Made by a program: the position numbers and the translations under genes. From Sinomicrobium kalidii (GTDB taxonomy: Bacteria; Bacteroidota; Bacteroidia; Flavobacteriales; Flavobacteriaceae): a DNA stretch of 64,000 nucleotides. Position 1 is the stretch's first letter. Each line of letters begins with the position of its first letter. Below, one piece after another: positions 903-7,715 of the stretch. A model generated the notes under the pieces. It was not told the origin of the DNA. It did no database searches and saw nothing but the letters and a program-made list of their open reading frames with translations. The stretch is from NCBI RefSeq assembly GCF_021183825.1, contig NZ_CP089211.1, forward strand, positions 62,001-126,000, given 5' to 3'.

Positions 903-3863
903 TCAACTCTCAAACCTCGGGTCGCTGATATAATCTTCTTTCTTCATTTTCACCACTTCTATACTGAAAAACCCGAATTCATTGGCCACTTTTCCATACA
1001 GCCGATATATGCCCTTTCCGCGGAACCTGTTTCTCCGGGCCACCGGGGGAAAGACCACTACGTCAAACACTTCCCCGTAATGGTCGATAAAGGTGCCGAA
1101 AAACATCTCTTCCCCCTTATGGGTTTGCGTCTTTTTCACCGCAACCAGGTAGCCGTAAATATCAATATACTTCCCTTCGCAATATTTCAGGTCCTGGGCG
1201 CCCTTGTTGCTTTTGGACCGTTCCTGTAGCAGTTCAAAAGGACTGCTCAGACAAAACCCGAGAAGTTCCAGCTGGTCAAAAGCCGCCTCCAGTTCAGTCG
1301 TCTGTAACACAGGAACATCAAACTCTTTCTGTTGCATCCTGAACATCCGGTATTGCGACTCTTCTCCCGGAACGACGCCCTGTCGCAGGTGGGCCTGCCA
1401 GAGGAGTTCGTACTTATCCGTCCCCGTAAAGCGGAAAGCGCCGATGCGTATCAGTATGGCAAGCTGCTCTATGCTTATGGCCACCCGGTCTATAAAATCT
1501 TCGAGGGAAGCGAAAGAGCCGTTTTTGTCCCTTTCCTGTACTACCCGGTAACACACCCGCTCTTCGAGCTCTTTCAGATACCCGAAGCCGAGATAGATAT
1601 CATTTCCGGATATCCTGTTTTCCATACGGCTGCGGTTAATACAGGGCACATGGACCGTTGCTCCCAGCATCCGGGCTTCGTGTATGTAAATTTCGGGGCG
1701 GTAAAACCCACCGCCGTTATTCAGTACGGCTACCATAAATTCCAGCGGATAATAGGCCCTCAGGAACAAACTCTGGTAACTTTCTATGGCATAGGAAGCG
1801 GAATGTCCCTTGGCAAAGGCATACCCGGCAAAACTTTCGATCTGCTTCCACACCTCAAGGGTCACCTCGTCATCATATCCTTTTTGGCGACAGTTCGCAA
1901 CAAATTTCTCCTCTACTGTCCGGAACTCTGACCTTGAGCGGAACTTGCCGCTCATACCCCTCCGCAGCACATCGGCTTCGGCCAGGGTAAGCCCGGCAAA
2001 GTGGTGGGTCACTTTTATCACATCTTCCTGGTAGACCATTACCCCGTAGGTCTCCGGCATGATCTTTAACAATACGGGATGGGCCTGTTGTACCCGTTCG
2101 GGGTCCTGGTGCCGGAGGATATATTCCCGCATCATCCCGCTTTTGGCCACACCGGGGCGGATAATGGAGCTGGCGGCCACCAGCCCCAGGTAATTGTCTA
2201 CCTGCAACTTCTGTAACAACATCCGCATGGCAGGCGATTCTACATAAAAGCACCCCATACACTGCGCACTTTCCAGCATGCTGTGGATCTTCGGGTCCTT
2301 TTTAAAACGGTTGACATCATGTATATCCAAAGGAGGTTCTTCCGGGCGGTTATACCTGATGATCTCCAGGGTTTCCTTGATCTTGGCCAGTCCGCGCTGG
2401 CCCAGGATATCGAATTTGTACAACCCTACATCCTCTGCAATGTGCATATCGAACTGAACCGTGGCATATCCCTTGGGGGGCAAAAAGGTAGCGGAAAATG
2501 TGTTTAAGGGGACTTCACTGATAAGGATACCACTGGCGTGCACACTGATATGACTGGGCATTCCCTGGAGGAGTTTCCCGTATTTCAATACGAGTTGTGA
2601 AGGTTGATCCAATTTATAGGGATCGTAATTCCCGGCACTCAGGCGATCAATGTCTTCCTTGGGCAGTCCGAACACTTTTCCCAGCGCTCTCACCACGCCT
2701 TTATAATTAAAGGTGACATAAGTGCCTAACAGGGCAACATTGGGAAAGCGTTCAAAAATATAGCGGGTGACATCATCCCTGTCCCGCCAGGAAAAATCGA
2801 GATCGAAGTCGGGAGGTGTACTCCGGAACAGGTTGATGAAGCGTTCAAAATACAAATCCAGCTCCAGGGGGTCCACATCGGTAATGCCCAGCAGGTAAGC
2901 CACTATACTGTTGGCCCCGCTACCCCTGCCCACATGGAAATAGCCTTTTTGTTTGGCATAATCCACAATGTCATAATTGATCAGAAAGTAAGAAATAAAG
3001 TCTTTCTGTTTAATGAGTTCCAGTTCCCGGTGCAAACGTTCCAAGGCCATCTTCTGATCGTCAGGATAGCGATAGCGGATGTTTTTCATACAGAGTTCCA
3101 GGAGGTATTCTTCGTCCCGGGCCTTGTCCCCGGTATAGGTCTGCTGGTTACTGCTCTGTTTGGCAGCGGAAAAGTCGAAGGTGATATGGCATTCCTTCAT
3201 TAACCGGGCCGTGTTTTCCAGGATAAAATGATATTCGCCGAAAGCCCTGTACAGGTTTTCCGGGGGATACATTTTCTCATCTTCCGAAGCGACCTCTCCG
3301 GGCGACAGTTTACTCAGCAGCGTATTGTTGTCTATGGCCCGCAGCAGCTTGTGAGCATTAAAATCACTTTTGTTCCGGAAAGTCACGGGTTGTAAAACCA
3401 CCAGTTTGTCTTTTAAATGACGGCAGGCCGACAAAGGGAGTTTCCGAAGGTCATTGACAGAAACCCCGATATATTCATTGTCCCGGAAGTCCTGAAATTG
3501 ATGTGCTTCCGTTTTTTCCAGGGGATAAATAATAATCGTATGCGGAATGGACGGGGCACGCCGGGGAAAGGCCTTATCCTCACGCAGATGCCCGGATAAA
3601 AAGGTATTGAGCCCGGTATACCCTTCATTATTTTTGGCAATACCTACGAATTGCTGATCGGTTCCGTTCCTGAAATCCACACCGACAACGGGTTTCATGC
3701 CCATCTGCTCCGCCTTGCGAATAAAGTTAAGGCAGGCAGAAGTATTGTTGATGTCGGTCAGTGCCGGTTGGGTAACGTGGTTTTCACGGGCCAGTTCCAG
3801 GAGTTCCACTTCGGAAAACGTACCGAAGCGCAGGCTGTAATAGGTGTGACAATTTAAATACAT
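903..3863 (-). CDS. DnaE-type DNA polymerase III alpha, short translesion-type paralog
   Basis: A C-family DNA polymerase of 986 residues, shorter than replicative DnaE (about 1160) and close to DnaE2/ImuC size. It has an N-terminal PHP domain, then VGRGSGANS (about 321-329), the catalytic PDFDLDF with D354/D356, and a third aspartate in YKFDILGQ. A C-terminal OB fold carries IDIYGYLVAV; no tau-binding tail is seen. The PHP metal site is degenerate: the usual H-x-H reads N4-C-H6, and TDHG reads TDIN. A candidate clamp motif is QYRMF. The start ATG overlaps the stop of the Y-family polymerase by one base (TAATG), so the two are probably translationally coupled. I infer an error-prone partner of that polymerase, not the main replicase. 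Confidence 0.88.
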   Translation of the reverse strand: MYLNCHTYYSLRFGTFSEVELLELARENHVTQPALTDINNTSACLNFIRKAEQMGMKPVVGVDFRNGTDQQFVGIAKNNEGYTGLNTFLSGHLREDKAFPRRAPSIPHTIIIYPLEKTEAHQFQDFRDNEYIGVSVNDLRKLPLSACRHLKDKLVVLQPVTFRNKSDFNAHKLLRAIDNNTLLSKLSPGEVASEDEKMYPPENLYRAFGEYHFILENTARLMKECHITFDFSAAKQSSNQQTYTGDKARDEEYLLELCMKNIRYRYPDDQKMALERLHRELELIKQKDFISYFLINYDIVDYAKQKGYFHVGRGSGANSIVAYLLGITDVDPLELDLYFERFINLFRSTPPDFDLDFSWRDRDDVTRYIFERFPNVALLGTYVTFNYKGVVRALGKVFGLPKEDIDRLSAGNYDPYKLDQPSQLVLKYGKLLQGMPSHISVHASGILISEVPLNTFSATFLPPKGYATVQFDMHIAEDVGLYKFDILGQRGLAKIKETLEIIRYNRPEEPPLDIHDVNRFKKDPKIHSMLESAQCMGCFYVESPAMRMLLQKLQVDNYLGLVAASSIIRPGVAKSGMMREYILRHQDPERVQQAHPVLLKIMPETYGVMVYQEDVIKVTHHFAGLTLAEADVLRRGMSGKFRSRSEFRTVEEKFVANCRQKGYDDEVTLEVWKQIESFAGYAFAKGHSASYAIESYQSLFLRAYYPLEFMVAVLNNGGGFYRPEIYIHEARMLGATVHVPCINRSRMENRISGNDIYLGFGYLKELEERVCYRVVQERDKNGSFASLEDFIDRVAISIEQLAILIRIGAFRFTGTDKYELLWQAHLRQGVVPGEESQYRMFRMQQKEFDVPVLQTTELEAAFDQLELLGFCLSSPFELLQERSKSNKGAQDLKYCEGKYIDIYGYLVAVKKTQTHKGEEMFFGTFIDHYGEVFDVVVFPPVARRNRFRGKGIYRLYGKVANEFGFFSIEVVKMKKEDYISDPRFES

Positions 3864-5077
3864 TACTGTTTTCTATGTGCTAAAATGGTTGGAGGTTGTC
3901 CGTTGAAAGGATTGGTCATTCTTCCTATGGTCTTTACGCCCAGGGCCGAAGCCCGGGTAATGCTGCGGTCGCCATACCGCAGGCGGATCTTGTCCATGGC
4001 CTGATAGAGGCGTATGGTCTCTTCGGTATCTTCAAAAAGGTTGATCTGGTAGTTACCGTGCACCAGGTGGCTGAACTTGACCCCGATAAGGCGTACAAGG
4101 AGCCTCCGGTTATACAGTTGACGGAACAGTTCCAGCACCTTGGGGATAAGGATATGGTCAGCGCTGGTATAGGGTATTTTCAACTGCCTGGAATGGGTCT
4201 GGAAATCGGAATACCTGATCTTTACACTGATACAGGCCGTAAGTTTCTCTCCTTTTCGCAGCTGAAAAGCCAGGTTTTCCGTCATGGCAGACAGCAATGA
4301 CCGCAACCGGTTTACGTCAATGGTGTCCCGGTCAAAGGTTCGCTCCGTAGAGATGGATTTTCGTTCGGAAAAAGGAATTACCGGGGTCATGTCTATACCG
4401 TTTGCCCGTTCCCGGATGGTCAGTCCGTTACGGCCCAGCACGCGGTACAGCATTTCCACCGGTATTTCCTGTAGGGTCCTGACCTGTTTTATCCCGAGGT
4501 TGCGCAGGGTCAGGTAGGTCTTGTCACCTATCATGGGAAGTTTCCTTATTGACAATGGGGCTAAAAAAGGCTTCTCCCGTCCGAGCGCTATCCAGATCTG
4601 GTTATTGGGCTTTGCTTCGTTCGTGGCTACCTTGGAGACCACTTTGTTCACGGAAAGCCCGAAGGATATCGGCAACCCGGTTTCCCGGATGATCTTCTGC
4701 CGGAGCTCGGAAGCATAGCGATAAGTTCCGAAAAAACGGTCCATCCCCGAAAGGTCGGCATAGAACTCGTCTATACTGGACTTTTCAAACACGGGTACGC
4801 TTTCCCGGATAAGTTCGGTGACACCCTCGGAATACCTGGTGTATGTCGCAGCGTCTCCTTTGATCACTGTAGCCTCTTTACACAATTCCCTGGCCATTTT
4901 CATCGGCATACCACTGTGTATGCCAAAAGCACGGGTCTCGTAACTGCATGCGGCCACTACACCGCGGTCGCTGAGTCCCCCTACCAGCAAAGGACGTCCT
5001 TTTAAACGACTGTCCAACAACCGCTCTACGGAAACAAAGAATGTGTCCAGGTCCAAATGAAGGATGGTCCGGTTCAT
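3863..5077 (-). CDS. Y-family DNA polymerase (DinB/UmuC-like), translesion synthesis
   Basis: The protein has 404 residues. The N-terminus HLDLDTFF supplies D9, and SSIDEFYADL supplies D103/E104, matching the three carboxylates of DinB. So it should be catalytically active, unlike ImuB of the proteobacterial imuABC mutasome. A helix-hairpin-helix thumb follows (PMIGDKTYLTLRNLGI). Near the C-terminus QINLF (344-348) is a textbook sliding-clamp binding motif. It is the first gene of a two-gene operon with the DnaE-like polymerase and is transcribed divergently from an S24 regulator. The shared upstream region holds four operator-like boxes, the first ending about 7 bases from the ATG. Induction by DNA damage is inferred from this layout. 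Confidence 0.9.
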   Translation of the reverse strand: MNRTILHLDLDTFFVSVERLLDSRLKGRPLLVGGLSDRGVVAACSYETRAFGIHSGMPMKMARELCKEATVIKGDAATYTRYSEGVTELIRESVPVFEKSSIDEFYADLSGMDRFFGTYRYASELRQKIIRETGLPISFGLSVNKVVSKVATNEAKPNNQIWIALGREKPFLAPLSIRKLPMIGDKTYLTLRNLGIKQVRTLQEIPVEMLYRVLGRNGLTIRERANGIDMTPVIPFSERKSISTERTFDRDTIDVNRLRSLLSAMTENLAFQLRKGEKLTACISVKIRYSDFQTHSRQLKIPYTSADHILIPKVLELFRQLYNRRLLVRLIGVKFSHLVHGNYQINLFEDTEETIRLYQAMDKIRLRYGDRSITRASALGVKTIGRMTNPFNGQPPTILAHRKQ

Positions 5078-5083
5078 ACATCA

Positions 5084-5154
5084 GGAATTTTTCCAAAAAT
5101 ATGGAATTTTTCCATATAAAAGGAAATAATCCAATGTTTTTTAGGATATTTTCC
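5084..5154. promoter_or_regulatory. Array of four GGA-N5-TCC operator boxes
   Basis: Four 11-bp boxes: GGAATTTTTCC at 5084-5094, the same word at 5103-5113, GGAAATAATCC at 5122-5132 and GGATATTTTCC at 5144-5154. Their centres are 19, 19 and 22 bp apart, about two helical turns. Box 2 sits in a longer palindrome, TATGGAA-TTT-TTCCATA (5100-5116). Together they fill almost the whole space between the divergent polymerase operon and the S24 regulator. Such an array is what a LexA- or CI-like dimer would bind cooperatively. That the neighbouring S24 protein is the binder is inference. Confidence 0.75.
5094..5101 (-). promoter_or_regulatory. -7 element of the polymerase operon promoter
   Basis: On the minus strand this reads TATTTTTG, matching the Bacteroidota -7 consensus TAnnTTTG. 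It lies between operator boxes 1 and 2, so the predicted transcript start falls inside box 1. A repressor on these boxes would block the promoter. Confidence 0.65.
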
Positions 5155-5165
5155 ATATTAACACC

Positions 5166-5173
5166 TATATTTG
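5166..5173 (+). promoter_or_regulatory. -7 element of the S24 regulator promoter, directly before its ATG
   Basis: TATATTTG matches TAnnTTTG and is followed by only four bases (TCTT) before the ATG at 5178. The transcript would therefore start at or next to the start codon. Operator box 4 lies 11 bases upstream, in the spacer of this promoter, which suggests self-repression. Confidence 0.6.
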
Positions 5174-5177
5174 TCTT

Positions 5178-5930
5178 ATGTCCAAAAGTTTAAATACCGA
5201 AATACGGCGCTTCAAAGCACTCCGCCGGGACCTGAACCTGACGCAACAGGCTTTTGCAGAACGCCTGGGGATCAAAAATTCCACGGCCGATATCGAAAGG
5301 GGGAAAACCCGGATATCCGGGGAAGTGGTGGCTGCACTGCTCGAACAGTTCGGGATCAATCCGTTGTGGCTGTTCGGGAAAAGTGAACAGAAATACCTGC
5401 GCCCTGCGGAACAAAGCATACTTCCCAAAGTAGTTACTTTAAATTCATCAGAAAACGAAAATATCGTACTGGTAAATGTCAAAGCCTCCGCCGGGTATGC
5501 ACATAACCTGCAGGACCCCGAATGGTACGAATCCCTCCCCGCTTTTGACCTGCCCCTCCCGGAATACCGCAATGCTTCTTACCGGGGATTTCAGGTAGAG
5601 GGGAACAGCATGCACCCCGTGTTGCATTCCGGGGAATGGGTTATTGCACGTGCAGCAGAAAAGCTATCGGACATTAAAGAGAACCAGATCTATGTGGTAG
5701 TACTCCCGGATACGGTGGTCGTGAAAAAAGTCGTTGTTTCCGGGGAAAAACTACAGCTTGTCTCTATCAACCGGGAATATCCTGCAATTGAAGTAAATGC
5801 CGGAGACATACAGGAAATATGGCAGGTGGTCAGCAAGATCTCCGGCCAACTGGAAATGGCTTCGCAAAACCTGGAAACCTGGGCCGAAGAGATCAAATCG
5901 GAACTGAAAGAAATACGGGAACGGTTGTGA
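5178..5930 (+). CDS. XRE-family regulator with S24 (LexA/UmuD-type) self-cleavage domain
   Basis: The protein has 250 residues. Residues about 8-65 form an XRE helix-turn-helix (LTQQAFAERLGIKNSTADIE). Residues about 100-215 are a LexA/UmuD-like S24 domain: a likely cleavage site A105-G106 (KASAGYA), nucleophile S144 (EGNSMHP) and general base K183 or K184 (VVKKVV). The 39-residue Ser-Lys spacing is close to that of LexA. After the S24 fold comes a 30-residue charged helix (QNLETWAEEIKSELKEI), not usual in LexA. Its place opposite two translesion polymerases and next to four shared boxes argues for a damage-responsive repressor of the cassette. It might also supply a UmuD'-like fragment; that is speculation. 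Confidence 0.88.
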   Translation: MSKSLNTEIRRFKALRRDLNLTQQAFAERLGIKNSTADIERGKTRISGEVVAALLEQFGINPLWLFGKSEQKYLRPAEQSILPKVVTLNSSENENIVLVNVKASAGYAHNLQDPEWYESLPAFDLPLPEYRNASYRGFQVEGNSMHPVLHSGEWVIARAAEKLSDIKENQIYVVVLPDTVVVKKVVVSGEKLQLVSINREYPAIEVNAGDIQEIWQVVSKISGQLEMASQNLETWAEEIKSELKEIRERL

Positions 5931-5933
5931 ATC

Positions 5934-5975
5934 GGTTGCTGGTATTCGGTGATCAGTATTCGGTGTTCGGTATGG
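5934..5975 (+). repeat. Degenerate 7-base-period array, left arm of a 24-bp inverted repeat
   Basis: Six consecutive heptamers fit RGTNNNN, for example GGTTGCT, GGTATTC and GGTGATC. Bases 5941-5964 match the reverse complement of 7647-7670 at 23 of 24 positions. The array begins a few bases after the stop codon of the S24 regulator. Confidence 0.75.
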
Positions 5976-6041
5976 GATTATATTGGTGGTAATTTGGAAA
6001 TACTCCTGCATTCAATAAAACAGGCGATTGAATAAGAAAAT

Positions 6042-6620
6042 ATGAAAAAAGATTTTTTTCAAACGATTTATAATAGTCCTTATATCGAGAAAACAGATTA
6101 CGAAGAAATCGCTAAGGCACATAGCCGAATGGATGTACAGCAAGGAAGTTTACTTTTAGAAGAAGGTAAAATTGCCAGGGAGTATTATATTATTGAAAAA
6201 GGTTTGTTCAGGTCATTTGTTTATGATTATAACGGTAACGAAGTAACGACTGAATTTTATGGCCCGGAAGAATTATTAATAGAGTCTTTTTCCTTATTTC
6301 ACAGAAGCCCTTCGATGGAAAATTTTCAGGCGTTATCAAACGGAACGGTTTGGAAAATTGAATATCAATTATTTCAGCAATTGCTTGGCAAAATAGAAGG
6401 ATTACGGGAATGGGGAAGAACCTGGGCCACCAGTCATTTATTTATCATGAAAAAACGCTCTATCAGAATGCTGACAATGAATGCTACCGACAGGTATTTA
6501 AATCTGTTAAATGAAAGGCCGCAGATTATCCGACAAGTTCCATTAAAGTACATAGCATCTTATTTAGGTATTACCGATACCTCATTGAGCAGAATACGAA
6601 AAGAAATCGTAAGCACATAG
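6042..6620 (+). CDS. Crp/Fnr-family transcriptional regulator
   Basis: The protein has 192 residues. The first two thirds fit the cyclic-nucleotide-binding beta-barrel (LLLEEGKIAREYYIIEKG, then YNGNEVTTEFYGPEELLIE). The C-terminus has a short winged helix (YIASYLGITDTSLSRIRKEI). This is the compact cNMP-type regulator frequent in Bacteroidota; the ligand cannot be told from sequence and no Fe-S cysteines are present. It precedes a SAM-dependent methyltransferase in the same direction, 82 bases apart. The pair is more AT-rich by eye than the flanking genes and is enclosed by an inverted repeat, which hints at acquisition as a unit. Confidence 0.85.
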   Translation: MKKDFFQTIYNSPYIEKTDYEEIAKAHSRMDVQQGSLLLEEGKIAREYYIIEKGLFRSFVYDYNGNEVTTEFYGPEELLIESFSLFHRSPSMENFQALSNGTVWKIEYQLFQQLLGKIEGLREWGRTWATSHLFIMKKRSIRMLTMNATDRYLNLLNERPQIIRQVPLKYIASYLGITDTSLSRIRKEIVST

Positions 6621-6662
6621 TATTTCTTGCCATATGGAAAGAGTATCCTGATTTTCCGACAT

Positions 6663-6670
6663 TAATTTTG
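6663..6670 (+). promoter_or_regulatory. -7 element before the methyltransferase gene
   Basis: TAATTTTG matches TAnnTTTG. It lies 32 bases before the chosen ATG at 6703, so the methyltransferase may have its own promoter, possibly controlled by the Crp-like neighbour. Confidence 0.5.
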
Positions 6671-6702
6671 CTGTATTGGTCATTTTAAAAACAGTAACTT
6701 TA

Positions 6703-7566
6703 ATGAAATCGGATATGAAGCAAAGCAAAAAAACAACACAACCCGACAACACGGCATTGCGGACAGCTTTATGGAGAGCTTTACACGTTTTGACAGACGA
6801 CAAACCCTATATCATTGAAGACAAAATAGGTTACGACCTGATCAGGCCCGAAGACAACTGGCAGGAACGTCCCGATATGAAATATACCAGCCGGCTTCGT
6901 GCCTCTGTTGTTGCCCGTGCCCGTTTTGTTGAAGACCTGGCAAAAGAACAAATCGAAAAAGGAGTAAAACAATATATTTTGCTGGGGGCCGGACTTGACA
7001 GTTTTGCGCAACGAAATACAGAGATCAGTTCGCACCTTGATCTTTATGAAATTGACCAGCCGGGCACATTGGCCTGGAAAGAAGAAAAACTTATTGAAAA
7101 CGGTTACAAAATTCCAGACAATCTTCATTTCGTTCCTGTTGACTTTGAAACTTCATCCTGGTGGAATGAATTATTAAACAAAAACTTTGACATCAACCAA
7201 AAAGCCTTTGTTTCCTGTATCGGGGTCACACTATACCTTACCAAAGAAGCCATTACAGACACACTTAAGAAAATGACTTTACTTGCCCCGGGTTCGGTTA
7301 TTGCAATTGCATTTTATTTACCATTGGACCAGCTCGACGAAGAAGACCGACCGATGCAGGAAATCGCAAATAAAGGAGCTGAGGCATCGGGAACTCCTTT
7401 TGTTAGTTTTTTACCGGTCAGCGAAGTAAAAAAGCTGGCAGAAGAAATCGGGTTGAGAGGCATACAGACCATATCGACAAAGGATATGACAGAAATGTAT
7501 TTTAAAGACAGAAAGGATAACCTTTTACCGGCAAGCGGAGAATATTTTCTGGTTGCGAGCATATAA
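6703..7566 (+). CDS. Class I SAM-dependent methyltransferase (leucine carboxyl methyltransferase-like family)
   Basis: The ATG at 6703 gives 287 residues; a second ATG at 6715 is also possible. A TTG 27 bases further up lies at the predicted transcript start and was rejected. The SAM-binding glycine motif is LLGAGLDSFAQR, with an acidic strand end YEIDQPG and a DFETSSW motif, as in the PF04072-type methyltransferases annotated 'SAM-dependent methyltransferase, TIGR00027'. The methyl acceptor is unknown; many relatives sit in small-molecule pathways, but none is seen here. It forms a two-gene module with the Crp-like regulator. Confidence 0.8.
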   Translation: MKSDMKQSKKTTQPDNTALRTALWRALHVLTDDKPYIIEDKIGYDLIRPEDNWQERPDMKYTSRLRASVVARARFVEDLAKEQIEKGVKQYILLGAGLDSFAQRNTEISSHLDLYEIDQPGTLAWKEEKLIENGYKIPDNLHFVPVDFETSSWWNELLNKNFDINQKAFVSCIGVTLYLTKEAITDTLKKMTLLAPGSVIAIAFYLPLDQLDEEDRPMQEIANKGAEASGTPFVSFLPVSEVKKLAEEIGLRGIQTISTKDMTEMYFKDRKDNLLPASGEYFLVASI

Positions 7567-7621
7567 AAACATATCGGCAAACGAAAGGTAAAGCGCTTCT
7601 AATTCCGCACTACACTTGTAC

Positions 7622-7670
7622 TTCATCACCATCCTTATATCATCATACCGAATACCGATCACCGAATACC
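7622..7670 (-). repeat. Degenerate 7-base-period array, right arm of the inverted repeat
   Basis: On the minus strand it reads as seven successive heptamers beginning GGTATTC, GGTGATC. Its first 24 bases mirror 5941-5964 with one mismatch. It ends the segment holding the Crp and methyltransferase genes. Confidence 0.7.
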
Positions 7671-7715
7671 CTTTTTAAATCCCCGTATTTTCTTAATAAA
7701 TATTTCCGTTATCCT

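Follow-up and report, generated by a model that had tools for sequence, protein, structure and literature searches.

Introduction

In the open-licence literature, nothing closer to the locus reported here was found than the systems described in PMC8565304, PMC6511836 and PMC13148647. The first describes a family of non-canonical LexA regulators with a GGA-N5-TCC motif, an extra helix and dinB-dnaE operons as targets, including a regulator in Elizabethkingia that is encoded opposite an error-prone polymerase gene (PMC8565304). Binding of GGA-N5-TCC by the Salegentibacter agarivorans regulator was observed in electrophoretic mobility shift assays (Sanchez-Osuna et al., PMC8565304), and for this regulator of strain DSM 23515, which belongs to the same group as the one reported here, both binding and mitomycin induction were measured (PMC8565304). 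The second reports, for Bacteroidetes, an active PolY2 that goes together with DnaE2 in the absence of ImuA, with an operon type represented by Cellulophaga algicola (PMC6511836), and the third describes the FddR units of Francisella, which are self-contained and have a phage-like S24 regulator divergent from DinB, on plasmid or chromosome (PMC13148647). Here, a divergent cassette of an S24 repressor gene, a Y-family polymerase gene (PolY) and a DnaE2-type polymerase gene is reported from Sinomicrobium kalidii, where it lies in a stretch of 64,000 nucleotides (contig NZ_CP089211.1, positions 62,001 to 126,000; hereafter the window) of a complete, single-contig genome of 5.36 Mb. With a probability of roughly 0.88, we consider the locus to be a DNA-damage-inducible divergent unit that combines S24 repression, RecA-stimulated cleavage and a PolY and DnaE2 mutasome.

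Architecture of the cassette and its operators

The open reading frame (ORF) calls place the S24 gene at 5178-5930 on the plus strand, PolY at 5077-3863 on the minus strand and DnaE2 at 3863-903 on the minus strand, the S24 and PolY genes standing back to back across a gap of 100 bp and the PolY stop and DnaE2 start codons sharing one base. The interval assigned to the cassette in the initial annotation covered S24 and PolY and omitted the DnaE gene. Four GGA-N5-TCC boxes occupy the gap, namely box 1 (GGAATTTTTCC, 5084..5094), box 2 (GGAATTTTTCC, 5103..5113), box 3 (GGAAATAATCC, 5122..5132) and box 4 (GGATATTTTCC, 5144..5154), with spacings of 19, 19 and 22 bp; among 20,000 dinucleotide shuffles of the gap, two boxes occurred in 8 and more than two in none. 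The element TAnnTTTG, which we take to be the Bacteroidota-type -7 consensus, is present for the S24 gene as TATATTTG (5166..5173, plus strand), 22 bp downstream of the start of box 4, and a -7-like element of the PolY-DnaE2 operon, TATTTTTG (5094..5101, minus strand), lies between boxes 1 and 2. The predicted boxes overlap promoter elements of both directions, which matches the expectation for a repressor, and the S24 protein most probably represses the cassette together with its own gene.

The S24 protein (250 aa) exhibits HTH_3 and Peptidase_S24 domains (Pfam), with a CI-type HTH (PF01381) instead of the winged LexA domain, and scores 22 bits against the lexA equivalog, whose cut-off is 111. 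The A105-G106 bond and the S144/K183 dyad, on which the initial annotation had based its claim of an intact cleavage site, are indeed present and invariant in all 18 rows of an alignment drawn from 120 listed of 2026 homologues, the window's own row counted. The predicted structure, of modest confidence (mean pLDDT 63.8), contains five N-terminal helices, the S24 domain and an extra C-terminal helix at 232-249 that is poorly conserved in the 18 rows; the top Foldseek matches of this model are LexA and the lambda and 186 repressors. The protein shows 92% identity to an S24 of Sinomicrobium weinanense, and the orthologue of S. agarivorans DSM 23515 shows 54% identity and two boxes. Altogether the protein fits membership in the published non-canonical LexA group of GGA-N5-TCC type.

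In the proposed mechanism, S24 would bind the four boxes in the shared promoter region and keep both its own gene and the PolY-DnaE2 operon repressed. Its cleavage at A105-G106 would be stimulated by RecA filaments formed on single-stranded DNA, whereupon the repressor would leave and PolY and DnaE2 would be made. The two polymerases would then work jointly in error-prone translesion synthesis as one mutasome, for which RecA, instead of ImuA, is the likely partner.

Conservation of the boxes in cis and at a distance

The boxes were compared in an orthologue set of 80 of at least 537 confirmed S24 loci, of which 79 were used for box counts, one locus (L043) having been dropped at a contig end. 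At least one box lies within 180 bp upstream of S24 in 79 of 79 loci and at least two boxes in 78 of 79, and 102 of the 128 successive spacings fall at 18-19 bp (52) or 22-23 bp (50). In 49 of the 79 loci a TAnnTTTG element stands after the last box, 19-22 bp away in 47 of these 49. Gene order in relatives, a comparison proposed in the initial annotation, places the PolY-DnaE2 operon beside S24 in 11 of the 80 loci. Where a closely related S24 is encoded elsewhere, a box pair spaced by 19 bp precedes the PolY/DnaE2 operon in 4 of 4 genomes, before PolY in three and before an operon-leading DnaE2 in one; in genomes with a distant S24, 0 of 5 loci carry such a pair before PolY/DnaE2. A second box pair was observed in all four relatives at a radical SAM gene (Pfam Radical_SAM in the one tested), which in our reading is SplB-like, and SplB is among the named targets of non-canonical LexA (PMC8565304). 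Because box pairs stand at PolY/DnaE2 with S24 either adjacent or distant, PolY-DnaE2 is very probably under the control of this repressor whatever the location of the repressor gene; the boxes at PolY/DnaE2 and radical SAM genes far from the regulator in the four relatives also mean that linkage is not required.

Several observations weigh against the reading of the locus as a damage-inducible, RecA-dependent unit. The agreement between orthologues and boxes is in part expected, since the loci were picked by their similarity to the window S24, and the TAnnTTTG element is not seen after the last box in 30 of the 79 loci. A search of the 5 kb surrounding recA yielded no box, so that the usual recA arm is missing from the loop; the recA of S. 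agarivorans is likewise uninduced (PMC8565304). As to the RecA partnership, the alignment of the putative RecA-NT-like motif at the C-terminus of PolY with the RecA of the genome is matched by 11.5% of shuffles (0.115), and against whole RecA an unrelated part of the protein aligns equally high. This pairwise alignment was not significant, and a RecA-NT motif in PolY stays a deduction from PMC6511836.

Regulatory self-containment and regulon size

No LexA DNA-binding domain (PF01726) over the cut-off was found in the genome by the profile search that the initial annotation had proposed; the five weak matches reach 15.1 bits at best, against a cut-off of 23.7. The RecA family search of the genome returned a single gene over the cut-off, RecA. 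PF00717 detects one S24 gene, and a wider family profile adds four S24-like ORFs outside the window (L212:5896-6642; L213:5593-6429; L214:5722-6432; L215:5674-6405), with which the statement that the genome holds a single S24 gene was dropped. These ORFs possess a Phage_CI_repr HTH, are without A-G bond and catalytic lysine in 4 of 4 cases and without the serine as well in 3 of 4, and are apparently non-cleavable CI-type repressors, which leaves the cassette S24 as the only one found with intact cleavage residues.

The genome was scanned for strict single boxes and for paired boxes. The strict scan gave 11 sites, as did a reversed control pattern, with three of the 11 in the cassette and one other outside the mechanical ORFs. 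The paired scan gave 36 places against 20 in the control, and all-A/T spacers in both boxes were observed only in the three of the cassette, a feature displayed by nearly all of the 207 boxes in relatives; two AT-leaning pairs outside the cassette both lie inside mechanical ORFs. The strict site outside both the cassette and the mechanical ORFs is an AT-rich box (L216:3576-3586) with a LuxR-type response regulator gene on one side and an ada / Oxygenase-NA pair on the other; it is a possible second target, though it could be there by chance. In the four relatives, the strict scan gave 20, 12, 9 and 20 sites against 10, 7, 7 and 19 in the control.

The regulon here may therefore comprise little more than the cassette, perhaps with the ada operon, and self-containment of the cassette in this genome is supported by the absence of a LexA domain over the cut-off, by the paralogues without A-G bond and lysine, and by the restriction of A/T-spacer pairs to the cassette. 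The initial annotation had proposed a self-contained switch independent of LexA, and this is supported for the present genome, although regulators of the family mostly govern a wider SOS regulon and four relatives carry boxes at a distance. An alternative is that S24 is a broad SOS master regulator, with the cassette one of many targets and the back-to-back layout incidental. Regulons of about nine operons in several families including Flavobacteriaceae (PMC8565304), the paired boxes that precede S24, PolY/DnaE2 and the SplB-like gene in the four relatives, and the single AT-rich box at the response regulator and ada-oxygenase pair would agree with it; the strict sites of this genome, however, do not exceed their control, and the spacer composition typical of relatives' boxes is confined to the cassette. 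We regard a broad regulon as doubtful for this genome.

The PolY and DnaE2 enzymes

PolY (3863..5077, minus strand; 404 aa) looks catalytically active from its residues. It contains the IMS and IMS_C domains (Pfam), and D9, D11, D103 and E104 as well as the clamp-type motif QI[ND]LF at 344-348 (QINLF in the window) are kept in all 12 rows of an alignment of the window and 11 loci with linked S24, which bears out the earlier description of an active-looking Y-family enzyme with a clamp motif. Beyond the clamp motif, all 12 rows of the subgroup keep an NPF-G-PP tail (window 3863-3950). The PolY protein exhibits no ImuB-C domain (Pfam), a stand-alone ImuB-C not having been searched for, and it scores 81 bits against the UmuC subfamily, whose cut-off is 431; the genome holds one more PolY match, with 38% identity. 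The ImuA model (NF033429) matched only the RecA gene in the genome, scoring 48 bits where 150 are needed to pass the cut-off, so the earlier statement that ImuA is lacking is upheld, on a weak control, because 0 of 14 control genomes passed the cut-off.

The DnaE2-type second DNA polymerase III alpha subunit (903..3863, minus strand; 986 aa) is one of two DnaE proteins of the genome, the other being the replicative one. All 12 aligned rows retain its catalytic PDFDxDF, and the degenerate PHP site and missing tail described previously were observed again: N-x-H replaces H-x-H and TDI replaces TDH, two sites that read HLH and TDH in the genome's replicative enzyme, and DnaE2 finishes after an OB-like region, about 85 residues short of the end of the replicative DnaE in a pairwise alignment, without a C-terminal tail. 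The replicative DnaE (1460 aa) carries an N-terminal extension resembling the exonuclease domain known from Bacteroidetes (PMC3919608).

The intact appearance of both enzymes, each with a clamp-type motif (variable in DnaE2), would also suit a different arrangement, in which the two have no more than an operon in common, PolY working as a stand-alone Pol IV and DnaE2 serving as a backup polymerase for gap filling, and 21 of 63 PolY2-like loci surveyed below indeed have no adjacent DnaE2. Against it, DnaE2 is adjacent in 42 of these 63 and in 0 of 17 DinB-type loci, and the stop and start codons of the two genes overlap in the window; we think such independence unlikely, and a joint mutasome the better account of the pair.

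The suggestion of the initial annotation that S24, once cleaved, doubles as a UmuD'-like polymerase subunit is highly improbable. In its favour, S24 scores 34 bits against UmuD and 22 bits against LexA, each far under the cut-off, the PolY of the window's group has a conserved C-terminal tail, UmuC being tailed as well (PMC6511836), and tail and linked S24 co-occur in 12 of 12 alignment rows. Against it, the presence of the tail is not tied to that of an S24 gene nearby, as the strict NPF-G-PP tail occurs in 12 of 89 PolY loci, 10 of these without S24 within 300 bp, and is missing in 24 of the 26 loci of this set that have S24 within 300 bp, a linked PolY was not found in 69 of the 80 orthologue loci (L043 and L061 being short of upstream sequence to judge), and the C-terminal helix of S24 is poorly conserved. 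This extra helix had already been noted in 2021 and read as a possible dimer stabiliser (PMC8565304), and as a UmuD' partner the S24 fragment was rejected, tail and helix conservation giving no support.

Distribution, S24 clades and mobile copies

Among 296 Bacteroidota genomes surveyed, PolY matches with E ≤ 1e-80 were detected in 79, their scores leaving a gap from 445 down to 349 bits. The 63 PolY2-like loci comprise all places of at least 440 bits other than the window's own and are split from the DinB-type by this score gap; 42 lie next to a DnaE2 gene, 22 have a divergent S24 no more than 300 bp away and 19 combine the two, and the ten lowest-scoring have neither DnaE2 nor S24. The 17 DinB-type controls, drawn from the 28 weaker places listed, have 0 adjacent DnaE2 and 0 divergent S24. 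S24 profile matches occur in 51 of 51 PolY2 genomes (the own one counted) against 12 of 20 genomes without PolY2, these 20 being the listed ones without a PolY match and not a random draw, and the matches may include non-cleavable paralogues.

A tree of 62 S24 rows (the 11 linked loci, the unlinked loci of the 80 numbered by multiples of four, and the survey S24s), built by a quick method and with long-branch warnings, resolves two clades. Divergent linkage is seen in both, and seven or more changes on branches with good support are needed to account for it. When 27 divergent loci were tested, the GGA box was absent in all 26 with an S24 of the other clade; the remaining one, from Dyadobacter tibetensis (Cytophagales), combines three boxes with an S24 of the GGA clade, which suggests acquisition by transfer, although it sits on a long branch. 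In 33 further S24s, 32 of the other clade and one from a GGA-clade viral contig, the aligned scissile bond is A-G in 21, M-G in 8 and A-S in 4 (L141, L143, L144 and L145), and because it varies, cleavability appears less certain in the other clade than in the window's group.

Units of similar composition were also observed on mobile elements, such as the conjugative Emticicia plasmid pEMTOL01, with SRAP, S24, dinB and dnaE, where S24 is divergent from dinB; a mobilizable Chryseobacterium plasmid with the same divergent S24/dinB pair; and a Dyadobacter plasmid, typed non-mobilizable, where S24 is divergent from an ImuA-annotated gene, behind which come a Y-family gene and then an error-prone DnaE. 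An Adhaeribacter plasmid displays SRAP-dinB-dnaE with no S24 in the stretch, two Persicobacter megaplasmid stretches display PolY-DnaE with no S24, and one of three IMG/VR loci with PolY has S24-PolY-DnaE2. Four of these places (L121, L122, L124 and L129, on three plasmids and a viral contig) show S24 divergent from error-prone polymerase operons. No description of a plasmid-borne S24/PolY-DnaE2 unit of Bacteroidota was found in the open-licence literature.

For the window's own cassette there is no sign of recent movement by blastn comparison of flanks: those in the first 16 kb of the window are common to three Sinomicrobium loci (L035-L037) and not to two others (L038, L039) or to Zhouia (L040). 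Between S24 and the next conserved gene, the window (5927-7673) contains a CRP-like regulator gene and a TIGR00027 methyltransferase gene, as does S. weinanense (L035), whereas L036 has only some 270 bp there and L037 only 40 bp. We tentatively suggest, at somewhat less than even odds, that Bacteroidota S24 genes with divergent polymerases constitute a portable self-regulated module, in which regulators of two old S24 clades were repeatedly joined with different mutasomes (PolY-DnaE2 or ImuA-ImuB-DnaE2), which moves on plasmids, one of them conjugative, and brings its own damage switch in place of a host LexA, and whose regulon has shrunk to the module alone in the window's lineage.

Comparison with known systems

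The locus represents a compact case of LexA-less SOS-like control, with repressor, operators and polymerases within 5 kb. Boxes in cis here, at a distance in relatives, and plasmid copies of similar units together make it testable in Bacteroidota how mutagenesis cassettes gain or carry their damage switch.

Compared with canonical LexA, the window S24 is without the winged-helix LexA DNA-binding domain, and compared with UmuDC (Pol V), its PolY is not of the UmuC subfamily and its S24 has an HTH_3 domain, UmuD being marked by having no DNA-binding domain. The imuA-imuB-dnaE2 cassette likewise joins a Y-family homologue and DnaE2 under an S24 repressor, whereas here ImuA was not found and the Y-family enzyme keeps its catalytic residues. 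FddR units have in common an S24 regulator divergent from a Y-family gene and their self-containment, and differ in S24 lineage, in a GTG-N11-CAC box, in a DinB described without DnaE2 and in phylum (PMC13148647). With the putative PolY2-DnaE2 mutasome the window shares an active-looking Y-family polymerase beside DnaE2 and no ImuA; a text search of PMC6511836 for S24 returned no mention of it. The non-canonical LexA group has in common an S24 with A-G bond and S-K dyad, a CI-like HTH, the extra helix, boxes at its own promoter and the dinB-dnaE link (PMC8565304), and the window differs from it in that the regulator gene and PolY-DnaE2 diverge directly from one region whose four boxes they share and in that the predicted regulon is seemingly reduced to the cassette, perhaps with the ada operon. 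The repressor group and the ImuA-less PolY-DnaE2 pair have both been published already, and the cassette is a well-formed new example of the two.

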